Below, piece after piece: positions 27,164 to 36,426 of a stretch of 46,057 bases of DNA (position 1 is the first letter of the stretch; each line of letters opens with the position of its first letter). The position numbers and the translations under genes are program-made. The notes below the pieces were generated by a model that made no database searches, was not told the origin of the DNA, and saw nothing but the letters and a program-made list of their open reading frames with translations. The stretch spans positions 1 through 46,057 of the forward strand of contig NZ_CACWVY010000022.1 in NCBI RefSeq assembly GCF_902764455.1, in the 5' to 3' direction. This DNA is from an uncultured Methanobrevibacter sp. GTDB lineage: Archaea > Methanobacteriota > Methanobacteria > Methanobacteriales > Methanobacteriaceae.

Positions 27164-28996
27164 ATGAACAAAAAAATAACATTTATATTTATTTGCATTG
27201 CTTTATCACTGTTCTGTATCTCCTGCACATCTGCTGTGGACAGTAATGCGGAAAACATTACAGATAATGATTTTCAACTTAAGGAATCTCCGGTTATATC
27301 CGTAAACACTTCTTCTGTTTACACTCAGCATTCCATTGGAATTTTTCTAAAGGATTCAAATGATACTCCTTTGTCAAATCAGAATTTAACAGCGAAAATT
27401 AACAATGCGGATTATTCAATCTCCACAGGTAATGACGGTGAGGCCAGCTTATTATTAAATCTCAAACCTGCTCATTATAATTTGGACATATTTTTCATGG
27501 GCAGTGGAAATTACTCTGCCGTCAATAAGACTTTTGACATTAACGTTTTAAAACTTAAATCCACAATTACTCCTGGAAACACTACTGTTTTTAAGTATAA
27601 ATATTTTTACACTACAATGACGGATAATTTTGGAAATCCTATAACTGATGAGACAGTATCCTTTTTGGTAAATGGAAATACATACACTTCAACAACTGAT
27701 AAAAATGGAGTTGCATCATTTAAAAATCTTTTAAACCCTAATGCTAAATATTCTTTAAGTATCTCATTTAAGGGAAATAAATATTATAGTGCAGTTTCCA
27801 AAACAGTTTCACTGATAGTTCCTGCAACAACCTCTGTTGTCATAGGAAATAACAAACTGCTTACAAACGGGTATTTGAGAATTTATCTTAAAAGCTCCAC
27901 ACTTTCTGCTATCTCACAGCAAACTGTTGTAATAAAAATCGGAAATAAAACATATACTAAAACAACAAATCCTGAAGGAATAATTGTTTTTGCTCCTAAA
28001 GCAGGGACTGGTGCTTTAAATATTAGTGTAACATACGGAGGCACAGAAACAATCATAGGATCAAATGCCACAAAGAATGTTGATGGAATTTCCGGAAGCG
28101 TAAAAAATCCGTCAAAACAGAAAATTCCACTGGTCAACGGCGCTCCTGATATAGATGTAATGCCTGGAAGCTATGTAATGGCTGATGGAGATATGAAATA
28201 CACTCTTTTAAAAGCACAATATCTTGAAACAATAAAAAGGGACAGCTATTATCTTTATTTATATAACAAAATGTCAAATTATGTTTTTTTCAAAACTAAA
28301 GAAGCGCCTAATCTGCAGCATGTAATTGTAAGGGAAAAATGGAACGTTATTGAAAGAGCCATCAATACCAAAGTCGTTAAGGCAAATAAGGCAGGATACT
28401 GGCCAACTCAAATTTCAGTTTCTCTTAAAGGCAAATCCTATACTTATCCTCAGGTAAGGGATGTGCAGGATACAGGATATACATGCGGACCTACTTCATC
28501 AAGTATGTGCAGTCAATTTTTGAAAAATTATTACTGTGAAAAGCAGCTTGCAATACTTTCAAAATCCACTTATCGTGACGGGTCAACTACTAAGGGGCTT
28601 AAAATTGGTTTGGAGAAATGCAACTTCAAATGTAGCTATTATTATAAATCATCCTTCAGTAAAGCAATCAATGAACTTAAGAAAGGAGGCCGTGCTTTAA
28701 TTTTCCATACCTGGTATCATTATGTAGCAATCCTGGATATCAGTAAGGACGGCAAAAAGGTTTTGGTTGGAAATCCTTCAGGGGATTATGACCATGGAAG
28801 CCATGACATTCCAACAAACTGGTTGACAGTAAGTTATATGAAAAAGATGTTTAACAACTATGAAACTTCAGGTTTAATAGTAAAACTGAAATATAATCTG
28901 AAATCAACTACTAAAAATCGATTAAAATGTTCATATTCTAGTTTTGGTGAAGGATGGACAGCCCAAAATACCAATGAAAGAATTCCTCAGATTTAA
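27164..28996 (+). CDS. secreted cysteine peptidase with Ig-like repeats (C39/C71-like)
   Basis: A 610-residue exported protein. It has a signal peptide (about 1-25), three Ig-like beta domains (about 45-125, 130-218, 222-306), and a segment near 325-400 that resembles a pseudomurein-binding repeat (YNKMSNYVFFKT). A papain-like peptidase domain spans about 425-590 with Cys441 in YTCGPTSS, His519 in YHYVAI, and Asn537/Asp541 in VGNPSGD. This fits C39-like peptidases and also the C71 pseudomurein endoisopeptidases. A role in cell-wall turnover or attack on neighbouring methanogens is inference. GAGGT precedes the start; there is no C-terminal anchor. Confidence 0.8.
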   Translation: MNKKITFIFICIALSLFCISCTSAVDSNAENITDNDFQLKESPVISVNTSSVYTQHSIGIFLKDSNDTPLSNQNLTAKINNADYSISTGNDGEASLLLNLKPAHYNLDIFFMGSGNYSAVNKTFDINVLKLKSTITPGNTTVFKYKYFYTTMTDNFGNPITDETVSFLVNGNTYTSTTDKNGVASFKNLLNPNAKYSLSISFKGNKYYSAVSKTVSLIVPATTSVVIGNNKLLTNGYLRIYLKSSTLSAISQQTVVIKIGNKTYTKTTNPEGIIVFAPKAGTGALNISVTYGGTETIIGSNATKNVDGISGSVKNPSKQKIPLVNGAPDIDVMPGSYVMADGDMKYTLLKAQYLETIKRDSYYLYLYNKMSNYVFFKTKEAPNLQHVIVREKWNVIERAINTKVVKANKAGYWPTQISVSLKGKSYTYPQVRDVQDTGYTCGPTSSSMCSQFLKNYYCEKQLAILSKSTYRDGSTTKGLKIGLEKCNFKCSYYYKSSFSKAINELKKGGRALIFHTWYHYVAILDISKDGKKVLVGNPSGDYDHGSHDIPTNWLTVSYMKKMFNNYETSGLIVKLKYNLKSTTKNRLKCSYSSFGEGWTAQNTNERIPQI

Positions 28997-30882: not shown

Positions 30883-33000
30883 ATGAGTAAAAAAAGCTTT
30901 ATTATTATACTAACTGTATTTGTATTATTAACGCTAAATTTTAGTGTTGCACATGAAGTTAATTCCACAGATAACAGTATTCAAACAGACAGTGGCGATA
31001 CTCAAATTTTAAAGGCTTCAAATTCCGATGTTGTTGAAGCGTCATCTAAACTGAGTACACATATTGATGTAAAAAGCAATACAACATTCGATGTCATAGG
31101 AGATTATTTTAAAGTAAAACTTTCTGATGAGAATAACAAATCTGTTGCTAACGCTAAACTGACATTTACTGTTGACGGCAAAAGCTATAATAAAAATACT
31201 GATTCTAATGGTATTTCTTCACTTCAGCTTAAATTAAAGGATGGCAACTACAAAATTGTTGTTAGGTTTGCCGGAAATGCTGATTATAAGGCATCTTCTA
31301 TTACAACTCATATAACAATGGATAATACTCGTGTTGTTGGAAGCGGTTTAAGTAACTCTGAAATTCAAAGCATAATTGATAATGCTAAAGTGAATAATGT
31401 GATTTTATTTAAAGGAAAAAGCTATTCTGGCATAAATTTGGTTATTACAAAAAGTTTATCATTAATTAGCACTGTTGATACAACATTAAAATCCACATCA
31501 TCAAGTCCTGTAATTACAGTTAAAGGTAAAAATGCATCTTTAACATCCATTAAAGGATTTAATATTCAGGGCAACGGTGATGGAGTTAAAATTCAGGGTT
31601 CTGATTATGTAACTATTTATGCAAATGACATTACGACTAAAGGAAATGCTATTATTGCATCCGAGACAAAATATCTGAACATTACTAAAAATAATATCGT
31701 TAAAAACTCTAAAAATGGTATTGTTGTTGGAGATTCATCTTATCTTTATGTTTTTGGCAATACGATTTCCAATAACGGTGAAGTTGGACTGGGAGTTGCT
31801 AAAGTAAACCATGTCTACATTGACGGAAATACTATTTCAAATAACGCTAAACAGGGTGTATATTTAACCAACAGCATCAATGGTGTTAATTATGGTGAAG
31901 GTCCAAAAAATATCCAGATTAATAAAAATACTGTTTCCAAAAACGGAAAGGACGGTATTGAAATCAAATATGCTGGAGATAACATAAATATCAGGTCAAA
32001 TACGGTTGAGGCCAATCATGAAAATGGTATTTCTTTAGGTATTGTCGGAACAAATACAATCCAGTCAAATGTAATAACTGAAAACTGGGAAAATGGTATC
32101 AGATTTTATAATAATTATGTAATGCCTAAAAATCAGGAAATCAGTTATAATGCTGTATTTAGCAATCTAGGTCGTGATGTTGAAGCAAAAGATACTTATT
32201 ATCAGGAAAATGGTATCAAATTGCAGATTGGAGACAACTGGTACACTGACTATAACGGAGTATGTCCTAAAGTCAGCACTAAATATATCAAATTTTCAGT
32301 AAAACAGATTGGAGACAATAAGTTTCAGGCTTTGTTTACGGATTCTTTCGGCAATATTGCTGGTCTGCTTCCAGATAGAACATTAACATTCCAGACCAAC
32401 AACGGAAAAACTGTAAGTATGACAATCAGCGGTGGAGCCGCAGTATTTACTGCGGATGCAAATGACGGAGATATTGTAAAAGCAACTGTGGACATGTCCA
32501 GAAGAGATAATGTTTATGATTCAAAAACCCAATCAAGTCCTGAAATAAATGGGGTGTCTCCGTCTTATGAGTATCCTTCAATCCCTCAATATGATTTGTA
32601 TGGTGATATTGGTGGAGGAAACGGAAACGGCAATGGTGATGGCTCTGGAGGAAATGCTAATGGTGGAAATTCCGGGTCTCAGGAGGGTGAACGTAGTAAC
32701 GGTAACGGTACTCACAGCCAACAGACAGATCCGTCCAGCAATTCAAATAATCCTGTAAATGATGTCTCACAAAGTTATGATACAGATACCTCCGCTCAGC
32801 AGGGAGCTTCCCAGAGCAGTAACGGTCCGGCTTCAGGCGCAGGAAGTGCAAATAGCCAGTCTGTAGTAAAACAGATTATTCTCGATGAAGATGATATTGT
32901 AAGAGTTGCTGGTATTTCATTTATTATCTTATTAATTTTATTGACAATTGCTTTTTATTATCGTGATGATATTAAACAAATGAAATCCAAAATGCAATAA
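30883..33000 (+). CDS. surface-anchored beta-helix adhesin-like protein
   Basis: A 705-residue surface protein. A signal peptide (about 1-24) is followed by one Ig-like domain (about 60-145), then a right-handed beta-helix (about 150-440, repeats of the N-x-I-x-x-N-x-x-G-I type as in NosD/pectate-lyase folds), a second beta region (about 445-555), a Gly/Asn/Ser/Gln-rich flexible spacer (about 565-665) and a C-terminal transmembrane helix (about 678-697) with a basic cytoplasmic end. The layout suggests a beta-helix held above the pseudomurein wall on a stalk. A near-perfect GGAGGTGA at 30871-30878 predicts strong translation. Confidence 0.85.
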   Translation: MSKKSFIIILTVFVLLTLNFSVAHEVNSTDNSIQTDSGDTQILKASNSDVVEASSKLSTHIDVKSNTTFDVIGDYFKVKLSDENNKSVANAKLTFTVDGKSYNKNTDSNGISSLQLKLKDGNYKIVVRFAGNADYKASSITTHITMDNTRVVGSGLSNSEIQSIIDNAKVNNVILFKGKSYSGINLVITKSLSLISTVDTTLKSTSSSPVITVKGKNASLTSIKGFNIQGNGDGVKIQGSDYVTIYANDITTKGNAIIASETKYLNITKNNIVKNSKNGIVVGDSSYLYVFGNTISNNGEVGLGVAKVNHVYIDGNTISNNAKQGVYLTNSINGVNYGEGPKNIQINKNTVSKNGKDGIEIKYAGDNINIRSNTVEANHENGISLGIVGTNTIQSNVITENWENGIRFYNNYVMPKNQEISYNAVFSNLGRDVEAKDTYYQENGIKLQIGDNWYTDYNGVCPKVSTKYIKFSVKQIGDNKFQALFTDSFGNIAGLLPDRTLTFQTNNGKTVSMTISGGAAVFTADANDGDIVKATVDMSRRDNVYDSKTQSSPEINGVSPSYEYPSIPQYDLYGDIGGGNGNGNGDGSGGNANGGNSGSQEGERSNGNGTHSQQTDPSSNSNNPVNDVSQSYDTDTSAQQGASQSSNGPASGAGSANSQSVVKQIILDEDDIVRVAGISFIILLILLTIAFYYRDDIKQMKSKMQ

Positions 33001-33081
33001 TCATCTTTTTTCTTTTTTTATAACAAATTATTTAATATATTTAAAACAAAAATATTTTTATCTTATCTTTGGAGGATTATT

Positions 33082-34200
33082 ATGAATAAAAGTGATTTGA
33101 AAAGGGATTATTTTATGCTCAAAGGACCGCTGGCCAAAAAGGGTTATGACTGGTGGTGGCATTCCTTAACTGCATATAATAAAAAAACTGGTGAACCAAG
33201 GCCATTTTTTATTGAATACTTTGTATGTAATCCAGCATTAGCTGAAGAAGAACCTACCCTTGGACAATTGCCTGAAAACAAGGCTGCAGGCAAAAAACCG
33301 TCCTACTGTATGGTCAAAGCAGGAACATGGGGTAAAAATCCTAAACAGATACATAATTTTTACTCAATGAAGTACTTTGACTGTCCTGATGATGAATTGA
33401 ACATTAGAGTAGGGGATTGCAGTTTAACAGAAACTCATATGAGCGGATTTTCTAGGGTGTCAGAAGAAGAAGCTCGCGAACACCCTGAATATATGTGTGA
33501 TGCTGGAGAAATGATGTGGGATTTGGATATTGATAAGCAAATCACTTTTAATGTTGGTTATGGTGCCAGTTCATTATTTAGAAAATTAAATTCATTTGAA
33601 ATGTTCTGGCATGCAGAAGGAATTAAAACTCAATACAGTGGATCCATCTGGCTTGATGGTGAAGAATACGAAGTGATTCCTGAAAAATCATATGGATATG
33701 CTGATAAAAACTGGGGAGGAGACTTTACCTCACCATGGCTTTGGATTTCCTCATGCAATATAACTAGCCTTAAAACTGGTAAAAAACTCAATAATTCTGC
33801 TTTTGAAGCAGGTGGAGGAAGACCAAAAGCATTCGGTATTTCAATACCTCGCAAACTCCTGATTGGATTTTATTATGAAGGAACAATGTATGAATACAAC
33901 TTCGCAAGATTCTGGAACATGGTAAAAATAGACTTTGACTTTGAAGAAGGCGATGAGATTCATACATGGCATATAAATGCATCCAACAAAAATTCCAGAA
34001 TGGAATTGGTACTCTATTGTAAACGTGATGAAATGTTACTTATCAACTACGAAGCTCCCGATGGCCAAAAAAGACACAACCGTTTATGGAATGGTGGAAA
34101 CGGTTGGGGTGAAATCAAACTATACAAAAAAGACGGAACATTAATCGATCATGTTAAAATTGAAAATGCTGGCTGTGAATATGGGGAGTATGATAAGTAA
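33082..34200 (+). CDS. tocopherol-cyclase-like (lipocalin/CrtC-fold) protein
   Basis: A 372-residue soluble protein with no signal peptide. The N-terminal GYDWWWHSLTAY... FFIEYFVCNPAL and the later DKNWGGDFTSPWLWISSC followed by AGGGRPKAF resemble the tocopherol cyclase/CrtC-like double-lipocalin family, where E/DKNWG and W-x-W-x-x-x-x-N are typical. Bacterial and plant members act on prenylated lipids (VTE1 closes the chromanol ring). Methanogens are not known to make tocopherol, so here it may bind or modify an isoprenoid lipid or quinone-like compound. It overlaps the next gene by one base (TAATG). GGAGGAT precedes the start. Confidence 0.65.
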   Translation: MNKSDLKRDYFMLKGPLAKKGYDWWWHSLTAYNKKTGEPRPFFIEYFVCNPALAEEEPTLGQLPENKAAGKKPSYCMVKAGTWGKNPKQIHNFYSMKYFDCPDDELNIRVGDCSLTETHMSGFSRVSEEEAREHPEYMCDAGEMMWDLDIDKQITFNVGYGASSLFRKLNSFEMFWHAEGIKTQYSGSIWLDGEEYEVIPEKSYGYADKNWGGDFTSPWLWISSCNITSLKTGKKLNNSAFEAGGGRPKAFGISIPRKLLIGFYYEGTMYEYNFARFWNMVKIDFDFEEGDEIHTWHINASNKNSRMELVLYCKRDEMLLINYEAPDGQKRHNRLWNGGNGWGEIKLYKKDGTLIDHVKIENAGCEYGEYDK

Positions 34201-34898
34201 TGATATTTACTGATATCCTGGCGTTAATTGTAGTATATATTTATGTTGCTGTCATTTTTGTTGTAGCAGAAATGGTTTTAAAGACAAGACCTGAAGTTTC
34301 ACGTAAATTTCTGCACATTATGGTAGGTAACATGATATTTGCCATGCCGTTTTTCTCAGATCCTTGGGTAATGGTGTGGTTTTTAACACTGCCGATTACA
34401 ATTGCCCTGTTCTTTTTAACTGAATACTCACCTGTTAAAATTGAAAACAGCGTAACAGAATCCGGTCATGCTTTGGGTTTATTTTTCTATGCAGGCATCT
34501 GGACAGTACTGATTGCAGTATTTACAACAATTGCTCCTGCAAACGATCCTAAATATTTCATATGGATTGTAGCATTGGCTATTGTTCCTATGGTATACGG
34601 TGACGGATTTGCAGCATTGATTGGTCAGAAGTTTGGTAAAGTCAAATATACTGTATTCGGAGGTACAAAATCCCTTGAAGGATCTCTTACAATGTTTGTT
34701 ATTACATCTGTAATGAGTGTATTTGTATGGATGGTTTTCACTTCAATAGGATGTACAATGCCTGAATTTAATATAGTTTACATATTGATGATTTCAGCTG
34801 TTGCAACAGTATGTGAAGCTTTCAGTTATGGTGGAATTGACAATTTAACAGTTCCTGCAGTAACTTCTATTTTATATTATTTAGTGGCTGTATTATAG
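34200..34898 (+). CDS. phytol/dolichol-kinase-like membrane protein (SEC59/VTE5 family)
   Basis: A 232-residue integral membrane protein with about seven helices. Conserved pieces of the COG0170 CTP-dependent prenol kinase/phosphatidate cytidylyltransferase-like family are visible: RKFLHIMVGN near 36-45, YGDGFAALIGQKFGK near 139-153, GGTKSLEGSL near 159-168 and the late DNLTVP. Relatives phosphorylate phytol, farnesol or dolichol. In archaea, salvage of geranylgeraniol or phytol-type alcohols for ether lipids is a reasonable guess. It is translationally coupled to the tocopherol-cyclase-like gene, which points to a shared prenyl-lipid substrate. Confidence 0.8.
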   Translation: MIFTDILALIVVYIYVAVIFVVAEMVLKTRPEVSRKFLHIMVGNMIFAMPFFSDPWVMVWFLTLPITIALFFLTEYSPVKIENSVTESGHALGLFFYAGIWTVLIAVFTTIAPANDPKYFIWIVALAIVPMVYGDGFAALIGQKFGKVKYTVFGGTKSLEGSLTMFVITSVMSVFVWMVFTSIGCTMPEFNIVYILMISAVATVCEAFSYGGIDNLTVPAVTSILYYLVAVL

Positions 34899-35016
34899 CC
34901 GCTAATTTCAATTCTTATTTTTTGCATTTCAGTAACTAATTTTTGCATCTTGGAGATATTGCCAAATAGCCATTTATATATTATTTTTCTAATTAATATT
35001 ATCGAATGGTGATAAA

Positions 35017-35268
35017 ATGAATTTAAGAGAAGAAGCCGAAAAAAGAGTTGATGCAAAAATAAAATTCAAAGAAAATTTATATAAATATTTAATTGTAAAT
35101 ACATTAATAGCTATAATTTGTCACATATTTTTACATAGCTATTGGTTAGTTGCATGTGTAATGTTTTTCTGGGGAATTGGCGTTATTGATGATTTTTTCA
35201 AGGCTTATTCTCTCAGTAATCATCGTGAAAAATTGATTCAAAAAGAAATTTCAAAAATGGGTGATTAA
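35017..35268 (+). CDS. 2TM-domain protein, first copy
   Basis: An 83-residue protein with a charged N terminus (REEAEKRVDAKIKFKENLY), two transmembrane helices (about 26-43 and 46-64) containing FFWGIGV, and a charged tail. This is the 2TM domain often found fused to or beside LytTR regulators. It is paralogous to the next gene, directly adjacent. GGTGAT precedes ATG 35017. Confidence 0.75.
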   Translation: MNLREEAEKRVDAKIKFKENLYKYLIVNTLIAIICHIFLHSYWLVACVMFFWGIGVIDDFFKAYSLSNHREKLIQKEISKMGD

Positions 35269-35544
35269 ATGAACGATAATTTACGTGTGTTAGCTGAAGA
35301 ACGTGCAGATGCAAAAATCAAATTCTATAAAAGTTTTACAATTTATTTAATTGTAAATGCATTTCTGGCAATCGTCAATGCAGTATACACTCCAGAATTC
35401 TGGTGGGTACTGTTCCCTGCATTTTTCTGGGGTATTGGGGTATTTGTCAAATTTTTAAATGCATTTGTCTTTGTGAATAAATTTAATACTGTAGAGTACC
35501 GTGAACGTAAGATTAATGAAGAAATGGAAAAGTTAAGAGATTAA
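35269..35544 (+). CDS. 2TM-domain protein, second copy
   Basis: A 91-residue paralogue of the preceding protein: the same EERADAKIKFYKSF start, two helices and the FFWGIGV motif between them, with a longer charged tail. The genes touch (stop immediately followed by ATG) and GGGTGAT lies inside the upstream gene, so they arose by tandem duplication and are co-translated. They may form hetero-oligomers in the membrane and modulate the LytTR protein that follows. Confidence 0.75.
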   Translation: MNDNLRVLAEERADAKIKFYKSFTIYLIVNAFLAIVNAVYTPEFWWVLFPAFFWGIGVFVKFLNAFVFVNKFNTVEYRERKINEEMEKLRD

Positions 35545-35548
35545 AATC

Positions 35549-35989
35549 ATGAAAGTAAATCTGTTTGTTTCAAGAGATATTGAAGAGCCATATGCAGACA
35601 TACACACCAATGAATTGACAGATAATATATCTAAAGCGATGTCAATTCTTGAAAGTGAAGATTCAAATGACATGCTGGCCGTTAAAAAAGGATCAGATAT
35701 TGCTCTTTTGGAGTTCAGTGACGTGTATATGTTTAGGGTTGAAGATAAGCAGGTGGTTGTATACACTGAAAACAACAATTACCTGATTAAAAAGCCGTTG
35801 TATCAGGTTGAAGAGACATTAGGCAGTGATTTTGTAAGAATTTCAAAATCGGCTATTGTCAATTTAAAGAAAGTTGAAAGGGTTGCCCCTTCACTTAAGG
35901 GAATGATGTTTATACAGCTTAAAAATGGTTTAAAGGATAATATCTCAAGAAAATATTTACCTGGTTTTAAAGAGGCTTTGGATTTGTAG
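35549..35989 (+). CDS. LytTR-family DNA-binding regulator
   Basis: A 146-residue regulator without a receiver domain. The C-terminal LytTR domain (about 48-146) shows GSDIALLEFSDVYMFRVEDKQVVVYT, then FVRISKSAIVNLKKVERV and the NGLKDNISRKYLPGFKEAL end, typical of this beta-type DNA-binding fold. The N-terminal 45 residues are a small acidic region. Paired with a downstream DUF3021-type membrane protein it forms a known kind of LytTR regulatory system, in which the membrane protein holds the regulator inactive. LytTR proteins are rare in archaea and common in Firmicutes, which suggests transfer. Confidence 0.85.
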   Translation: MKVNLFVSRDIEEPYADIHTNELTDNISKAMSILESEDSNDMLAVKKGSDIALLEFSDVYMFRVEDKQVVVYTENNNYLIKKPLYQVEETLGSDFVRISKSAIVNLKKVERVAPSLKGMMFIQLKNGLKDNISRKYLPGFKEALDL

Positions 35990-35997
35990 GTGAGAAT

Positions 35998-36426
35998 ATG
36001 AAAGTTGATTTAATGAAAAGGTTGGCATTGGGTGCTTTCGTTGGTTGTTTTATTGTAATGTTTGTCATGGTTTTGATATCTTTACAAGACGGTCCTCAAA
36101 ATGTAAGCTTTAGCGGTACAACAATTATCAATGCATTTTTAGGATCAATTGTAGTCGGTTGGGGATTTTCTTTGACTGGATTAATTTATGAAAAAGAGGA
36201 CATTGCATTTCCGCTTCAGGTAGCATTCCAGATGGGTATTGGAATGATTATACTCTTCATTGTTGCTATTTATCTTCAATGGATGCCTGTTAACTTGGGA
36301 ATCAGCATAATTATTGAATGGATAATAATCGCATGCATATTTGCGGCAGTTTTCTGGTGCGGTTTTTACATATATTATTATATGGTTGCCCGTGATTTGA
36401 ATAATAAATTAAATGTTAAAAAATAG
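35998..36426 (+). CDS. DUF3021-like four-helix membrane protein
   Basis: A 142-residue membrane protein with four helices (about 10-28, 40-60, 73-92, 105-130) and short polar ends. The layout and its place nine bases behind a LytTR gene match the DUF3021 family that partners LytTR regulators in Firmicutes, probably as a membrane-bound antagonist or sensor. The polar segment GLIYEKEDIAFPLQ between helices 2 and 3 is typical. A hairpin terminator follows at once, closing the four-gene cassette. Confidence 0.75.
   Translation: MKVDLMKRLALGAFVGCFIVMFVMVLISLQDGPQNVSFSGTTIINAFLGSIVVGWGFSLTGLIYEKEDIAFPLQVAFQMGIGMIILFIVAIYLQWMPVNLGISIIIEWIIIACIFAAVFWCGFYIYYYMVARDLNNKLNVKK

Follow-up and report, generated by a model that had tools for sequence, protein, structure and literature searches.

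A tocopherol-cyclase-like gene that runs directly into a prenol-kinase-like gene raises the question of what such a pair does in a methanogen, since we know of no tocopherol metabolism in these organisms. The two genes, here called ORF1 and ORF2, lie in the genome of an uncultured Methanobrevibacter sp. (assembly GCF_902764455.1), an assignment with which a protein identity of 97% to a Methanobrevibacter MAG agrees. The window is the whole stretch of DNA that was analysed, 46,057 nucleotides of contig NZ_CACWVY010000022.1. A sequence-only reading of it had compared the pair with VTE1 and VTE5, which act in one pathway in plants, and had suggested an undescribed route of prenyl-lipid salvage or modification.

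The overlapping genes and their products

The features of the locus are as follows.

33071..33075, + strand: Shine-Dalgarno-like GGAGG before ORF1 (sequence)
33082..34200, + strand: ORF1, tocopherol-cyclase-like (PF14249) double-lipocalin protein of 372 aa (ORF, Pfam, model)
33697..33717, + strand: YADKNWG motif, residues 206-212, with D208 as candidate catalytic acid (alignment of 62; plant counterpart YxEKNWG, PMC4963081)
33736..33744, + strand: W219-L-W221, candidate cation-stabilising Trp pair (alignment of 62)
34183..34188, + strand: Shine-Dalgarno-like GGGGAG before ORF2, inside ORF1 (sequence)
34200..34898, + strand: ORF2, read as a SEC59/VTE5-like membrane prenol kinase of 232 aa, with an all-helical model (ORF, motifs, model)
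34302..34316, + strand: RKFLH, residues 35-39, an Arg-Lys-x-x-His charged clamp (R35 and H39 invariant, K36 nearly so, in 12 relatives)
34596..34607, + strand: YGDG, residues 133-136 of ORF2 (invariant in the alignment of 12 relatives)
34881..34905, + strand: terminator-like hairpin overlapping the end of ORF2 (consensus match only)

Both genes occupy exactly the coordinates at which they had been placed from the sequence, and they overlap by one base within TAATG (34198-34202). This overlap, with a Shine-Dalgarno-like site before each ORF, agrees with the layout proposed earlier, and ORF1 and ORF2 probably form a co-translated unit. The hairpin after ORF2 suggests that the unit ends there; terminator-like hairpin sites in the region number 9, against 1.8 expected. 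On the 3' side of the pair (35017-36426) lie genes for two proteins with 2TM domains, for a DNA-binding protein of the LytTR type and for a DUF3021 membrane protein. The LytTR and DUF3021 genes together recall LytTR regulatory systems of bacteria, and the whole block comes after the pair in most, but not all, loci of the genus labelled g1. On the 5' side, a NosD-like right-handed beta-helix surface protein with a C-terminal membrane segment is encoded at 30883-33000 and, in several related genomes, is the immediate upstream neighbour of ORF1. A secreted-looking protein of 610 aa that combines Ig-like repeats with a C39-type peptidase domain is encoded at 27164-28996.

ORF1 is the sole PF14249 (Tocopherol_cycl) gene of its genome and lies above the curated cut-off of this family (E 6.8e-12, 45.6 bits against 26.6). 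Its residues 166-368, mainly the second half of the protein, are matched to positions 149-334 of the 335-position profile, and a full-length alignment fails, the N-terminal half being too diverged. An obvious signal peptide was absent on inspection by eye. The DKNWG...WxW pattern that had been noticed in ORF1 is real: an alignment of 62 archaeal and bacterial relatives has 76 invariant positions, and these include Y206, D208, K209, N210, W211, G212, W219 and W221. Photosynthetic cyclases have YxEKNWG with FPxWxW nearby, and FPxWxW is also frequent in bacterial relatives (PMC4963081), whereas ORF1 has YADKNWG and FTSPWLW, the Glu being conservatively replaced by Asp. Mutagenesis of CrtC has lent support to an Asp as the proton donor and to Trp residues as steadying the cation (PMC12402844; PMC6013536). 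W219 and W221 of ORF1 are likened to CrtC W283 and W285 (PMC12402844), and D208 to CrtC D268, by motif order only; by this analogy we infer that ORF1 may carry out chemistry of the same kind.

An AlphaFold2 model of ORF1 built from 15 relatives (pLDDT 81.8, pTM 0.83) has the fold class of tocopherol cyclase, as the earlier reading had expected. All 12 of its PDB matches with E < 0.001 belong to the CrtC/AttH double-lipocalin superfamily, being Fsa2-like pericyclases, AttH, kievitone hydratase and 25-phosphosteroid lyase, with modest TM-scores of 0.40-0.54. When the PDB was searched by sequence, kievitone hydratase was the sole match of note, and a weak one (E 0.079; E 0.039 with a profile). 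ORF1 is a bacterial-type, probably soluble tocopherol-cyclase-like enzyme in the CrtC/tocopherol-cyclase superfamily.

ORF2 matches no family in Pfam or NCBIfam, including PF01148, which only one of its 12 relatives reaches (E 0.0093), and its profile matches none of the PDB sequences; NMDA-receptor matches in a sequence search were dismissed as chance membrane matches. Because of this absence of a curated family match, the SEC59/VTE5 reading rests on motifs and on structural similarity. The alignment of 12 relatives contains the RKxxH triad, YGDG, GxKSxEGS and GxDN, and E206 is invariant; an RKxxH triad and a hinge Glu have been described in the Plasmodium polyprenol kinase PfPolK (PMC10849223). 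The ORF2 model is all-helical (pLDDT 79), and its top PDB fold match is the CDP-DAG synthetase 4q2e, with a match probability of 0.99 but E 0.04 and TM 0.37-0.41. ORF2 is best read as a CTP-dependent prenol kinase that is SEC59/VTE5-like without being called a member of that family. The two broad families proposed for the pair hold in this sense, for ORF1 by the Pfam score and for ORF2 by motifs and a CdsA-like structural match.

Distribution and origin of the pair

The pair is conserved well beyond the genome in which it was noticed. Among 139 Methanobacteriaceae genomes, ORF1 is present in 85 and ORF2 in 90 (92 if two weak matches are counted), and of the 74 genomes with both genes, 71 have ORF1 directly upstream of ORF2 on the same strand. 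A 72nd adjacent case is G027, where two contigs overlap inside the kinase gene. In genus g1 the paired genes overlap or lie only a few bases apart, and the wider context varies between genera and even within g1. In G019, which is presumably M. ruminantium M1, the two genes are side by side; the ORF1 homologue of this complete genome (L075, 5055-6122) is broken near the C-terminus by a frame change after about residue 353, which reflects either a sequencing error or recent decay.

Each gene also occurs without the other. Eleven genomes, mostly of Methanosphaera, have ORF1 only, and 20 Methanosphaera genomes searched with a profile gave no ORF2 relative; in two of this genus (L063, 6199-8381; L074, 6603-8779), the ORF1 homologue is followed after about 25-35 bp by genes for a MacB/FtsX permease and an ABC ATPase. 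Sixteen genomes have ORF2 only, and G060 and G065 carry both genes apart. In G067 (L073), ORF1 is mostly lost and leaves a remnant before an intact kinase gene, so that the kinase outlives the loss of ORF1 in this genome. When the search for ORF1 was widened to the phylum, no new genus joined those already noted, and the total stands at 4 of the 20 genera searched. At four loci with no linked ORF1 (L077, L078, L080 and L081), ORF2 adjoins the thymidylate kinase gene tmk, which looks like the older arrangement, the kinase being a resident, older gene of the Methanobacteriaceae that is often next to tmk. A VTE6-like DUF92 protein is uninformative as a partner of ORF1, as it is present in 125 of the 139 family genomes with or without ORF1.

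ORF1 relatives extend far into bacteria. A scan of 84,980 species genomes, a collection biased towards ruminant-gut MAGs, gave at least 559 related stretches. Among the matches listed, the best after methanogens are from Bacillota and Chloroflexota (55-66% identity), and the named hosts are mostly ruminant-gut MAGs. The relatives are sporadic and stand alone in Bacillota, Spirochaetota, Chloroflexota and a bin labelled Deltaproteobacteria. No kinase or ORF2 relative was found near ORF1 in 53 bacterial loci, nor was a conserved neighbourhood of bacterial ORF1 found, only small groups sharing an SDR, DUF362 or CmpB-type neighbour. A plasmid search gave no ORF1. Two unannotated faecal records labelled 'Bacteriophage sp.' (MT837528.1 and MT838316.1), possibly bacterial contigs, contain ORF1 relatives at 37-39% identity.

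In the ORF1 tree, archaeal sequences fall in two places. Clade A (the window, Methanobrevibacter, Methanosphaera and G007) stands beside Lachnospiraceae-type sequences, and clade B (G025, G060 and G065) lies among other gut bacteria; a single archaeal clade is rejected (AU p 3e-48). The natural reading of this tree is that ORF1 was horizontally acquired from bacteria at least twice. Since the apparent donors and the nearest relatives outside methanogens are bacterial, modification of archaeal lipids is disfavoured as the ancestral role of ORF1. A clade B ORF1 lies upstream of the kinase at the kinase-tmk locus in G025 and G027, the clade B placement of G027, which is outside the tree, being inferred from similarity and arrangement. 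Both ORF1 lineages are thus found before the kinase, but the AU test does not reject a single clade of kinases from all linked loci (p 0.73), which weakens a strict claim of two independent linkages: there could have been two, or one linkage followed by in-place replacement of ORF1. Before DN (residues 209-215 in the window), SYGG or SPGG stands in the kinases that accompany a clade A ORF1, whereas TPKG stands there in unlinked kinases and in the one linked to clade B; this may mark a change in the specificity of the kinase.

Possible functions of the pair

The analogy with plant tocopherol metabolism is weak. HPPD has no match in the genome of the window, which is 98% complete, and the single UbiA prenyltransferase there is presumably the archaeal lipid prenyltransferase; the precursor pathway of HPPD and homogentisate phytyltransferase was thus not found, and tocopherol synthesis by this organism is unlikely. 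A pathway unit of VTE1/VTE5 type is not supported: ORF1 is bacterial-type and apparently acquired at least twice, it lacks the kinase in the bacterial loci and in Methanosphaera, and the kinase lacks ORF1 in 16 genomes. ORF1 might instead close or open the chromanol ring of tocopherol-type quinols from plant feed. The family name, the kinship of its motif with the plant YxEKNWG, the FPxWxW of many bacterial relatives (PMC4963081) and the rumen bias of the named hosts among the matches listed agree with such a role. However, it is mainly the second half of ORF1 that the Pfam match covers, the fold is also that of hydratases and lyases in the superfamily, and the missing HPPD and lone UbiA speak against synthesis; a role on dietary vitamin E relatives is very improbable. 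A literature search on tocopherolquinol in Butyrivibrio listed no paper that contained the word.

The reading that we prefer, tentatively and with rather less than even confidence, is that the pair is a co-translated isoprenoid unit of rumen and gut Methanobacteriaceae, in which a protonating enzyme (ORF1) and a prenol kinase (ORF2) act on the same isoprenoid pool. In ORF1, a prenyl or terpenoid chain would lie between the two barrels and receive a proton from Asp208 at an isolated C=C bond; the cation so formed would be steadied by Trp219 and Trp221 and captured by water or an internal hydroxyl, giving hydration or ring closure without a cofactor. ORF2, the resident membrane kinase, would use a nucleoside triphosphate (CTP, to judge by the family) to phosphorylate an isoprenoid alcohol. 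The genes would be kept together because both handle one hydrophobic pool, most likely plant-derived prenyl compounds or alcohols, such as phytol and prenylated phenolics, in the gut contents of herbivores. The PF14249 match, fold matches confined to the superfamily, the invariant Asp and Trp residues, and the RKxxH, hinge Glu and apparent CdsA-like fold of the kinase count for this joint unit, as do the adjacency in 71 of 74 genomes and in G027, although the wider context varies, and the two ORF1 lineages before the kinase; the near-constant adjacency suggests that ORF1 and ORF2 may work together on isoprenoid compounds. Against it are ORF1 without an ORF2 relative in bacteria and Methanosphaera, the separate genes of G060 and G065, the kinase left alone in G067, and the modest TM-scores of the ORF1 fold matches. 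As the genes are found singly or apart, neither strictly needs the other, and their co-localisation may reflect regulation only.

Adjacency could also be inherited from one ancestral insertion and have no functional meaning. Two related genera account for most of the adjacent pairs, which makes the 71 cases non-independent, and the linked kinases may form one clade, with linkage once and ORF1 replaced later. Such chance neighbours are improbable, however: the pair is intact across several wider contexts, its genes overlap or nearly touch in g1, and the second ORF1 lineage at this place needs either a second insertion, which we estimate at about 1 in 2000 genes by chance, or replacement in place. 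A more serious contender, though still doubtful, is that ORF1 is a stand-alone detoxification enzyme that hydrates or cyclises the prenyl side chain of plant antimicrobials, the kinase being an unrelated housekeeping gene that is merely co-transcribed. Kievitone hydratase is among the closest solved structures as well as the only sequence match of note in the PDB, and the fungal enzyme yields a less toxic tertiary alcohol and also accepts xanthohumol (PMC5805349). The sporadic, stand-alone spread of ORF1 relatives is often seen with detoxification genes, and the permease and ATPase close behind ORF1 in the two Methanosphaera genomes form a MacB-type ABC exporter. On the other hand, detoxification by ORF1 alone leaves the 71 adjacent pairs and the two ORF1 lineages before the same kinase unexplained, and kievitone hydratase is secreted, whereas ORF1 has no obvious signal peptide.

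The adjoining kinase would also fit a module in which ORF2 phosphorylates an isoprenoid alcohol from which ORF1, as a phospholyase, expels phosphate to give an alkene, or in which the reverse addition takes place. Structures of 25-phosphosteroid lyase are among the 12 significant fold matches, and the 25-hydroxysteroid kinase/lyase cascade works on an isoprenoid side chain (PMC8449060; PMC11061730). Yet that kinase is reported as a phosphotransferase with little similarity to known ones and not a membrane CTP kinase (PMC8449060), ORF1 shares about 11% identity with the lyase, and bacteria and Methanosphaera carry ORF1 without the kinase; phosphorylation followed by elimination is improbable.

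The pair may possibly salvage phytol or modify archaeal lipid alcohols. A more speculative reading, which we consider unlikely, makes it a new module of isoprenoid processing: rumen methanogens would use it to rework prenyl alcohols or prenylated compounds from plants, either salvaging C20 chains for archaeal lipids or disarming plant antimicrobials, and hundreds of gut bacteria would use the ORF1 enzyme in the absence of the kinase. ORF1 represents a large, strongly conserved and functionally uncharacterised family of herbivore-gut anaerobes. Its substrate, once found, would supply a function for many unexplained genes and could expose a link of feed plant isoprenoids to the main methane producers of the rumen, and the pairing with a kinase is a testable clue that bacterial neighbourhoods do not give.

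Comparison with known systems

The term undescribed, as applied to this locus, does not fit the single genes. TC-like proteins of unknown function were reported from heterotrophic bacteria in 2016 (PLoS One, PMC4963081), gene 0432 of M. ruminantium is listed as tocopherol cyclase/vte1 (PMC7772410), and a gene of M. smithii is annotated as phytol kinase K18678 (PMC10939349); 0432 is probably an orthologue of ORF1, and the K18678 gene one of ORF2. The two entries were published separately, in a table or figure, where the pairing is left unremarked. For the pair the term seems to stand: the open literature yielded no earlier account of a conserved, co-translated unit of these genes, of how widely gut Methanobacteriaceae carry it or of ORF1 having come twice from bacteria, and all three appear to be new.

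The TC-like proteins of heterotrophic bacteria share with ORF1 Y-x-(D/E)KNWG followed by W-x-W (PMC4963081), whereas ORF1 occurs in methanogenic archaea, is paired with a prenol-kinase-like gene and has 55-66% identity to proteins of gut Bacillota. The plant and cyanobacterial tocopherol cyclase (VTE1/SXD1) has its Pfam family and a related motif in common with ORF1, which, compared by motif and family profile, is shorter, has Asp for Glu in the motif and lies in a genome in which no tocopherol pathway was found. CrtC carotenoid 1,2-hydratase and kievitone hydratase resemble ORF1 in the double-lipocalin fold class, by the structure match to kievitone hydratase, and, by motif order, in a candidate acidic Asp and W-x-W; ORF1 differs in its Pfam family and has about 11-12% identity to kievitone hydratase. 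The RKxxH motif, the conserved Glu and probably the all-helical CdsA-related membrane fold of SEC59, VTE5 and polyprenol kinases (COG0170 type, e.g. PfPolK) are also those of ORF2, which differs in having no curated family match and, in clade A-linked members, SYGG or SPGG instead of TPKG. The 25-hydroxysteroid kinase and 25-phosphosteroid lyase of Sterolibacterium, in which the kinase precedes the lyase in the pathway, offer a known case in which a kinase supplies a lyase with the ORF1 fold class, although that kinase is of another family, has no lyase candidate in its vicinity (PMC8449060) and acts on a steroid.
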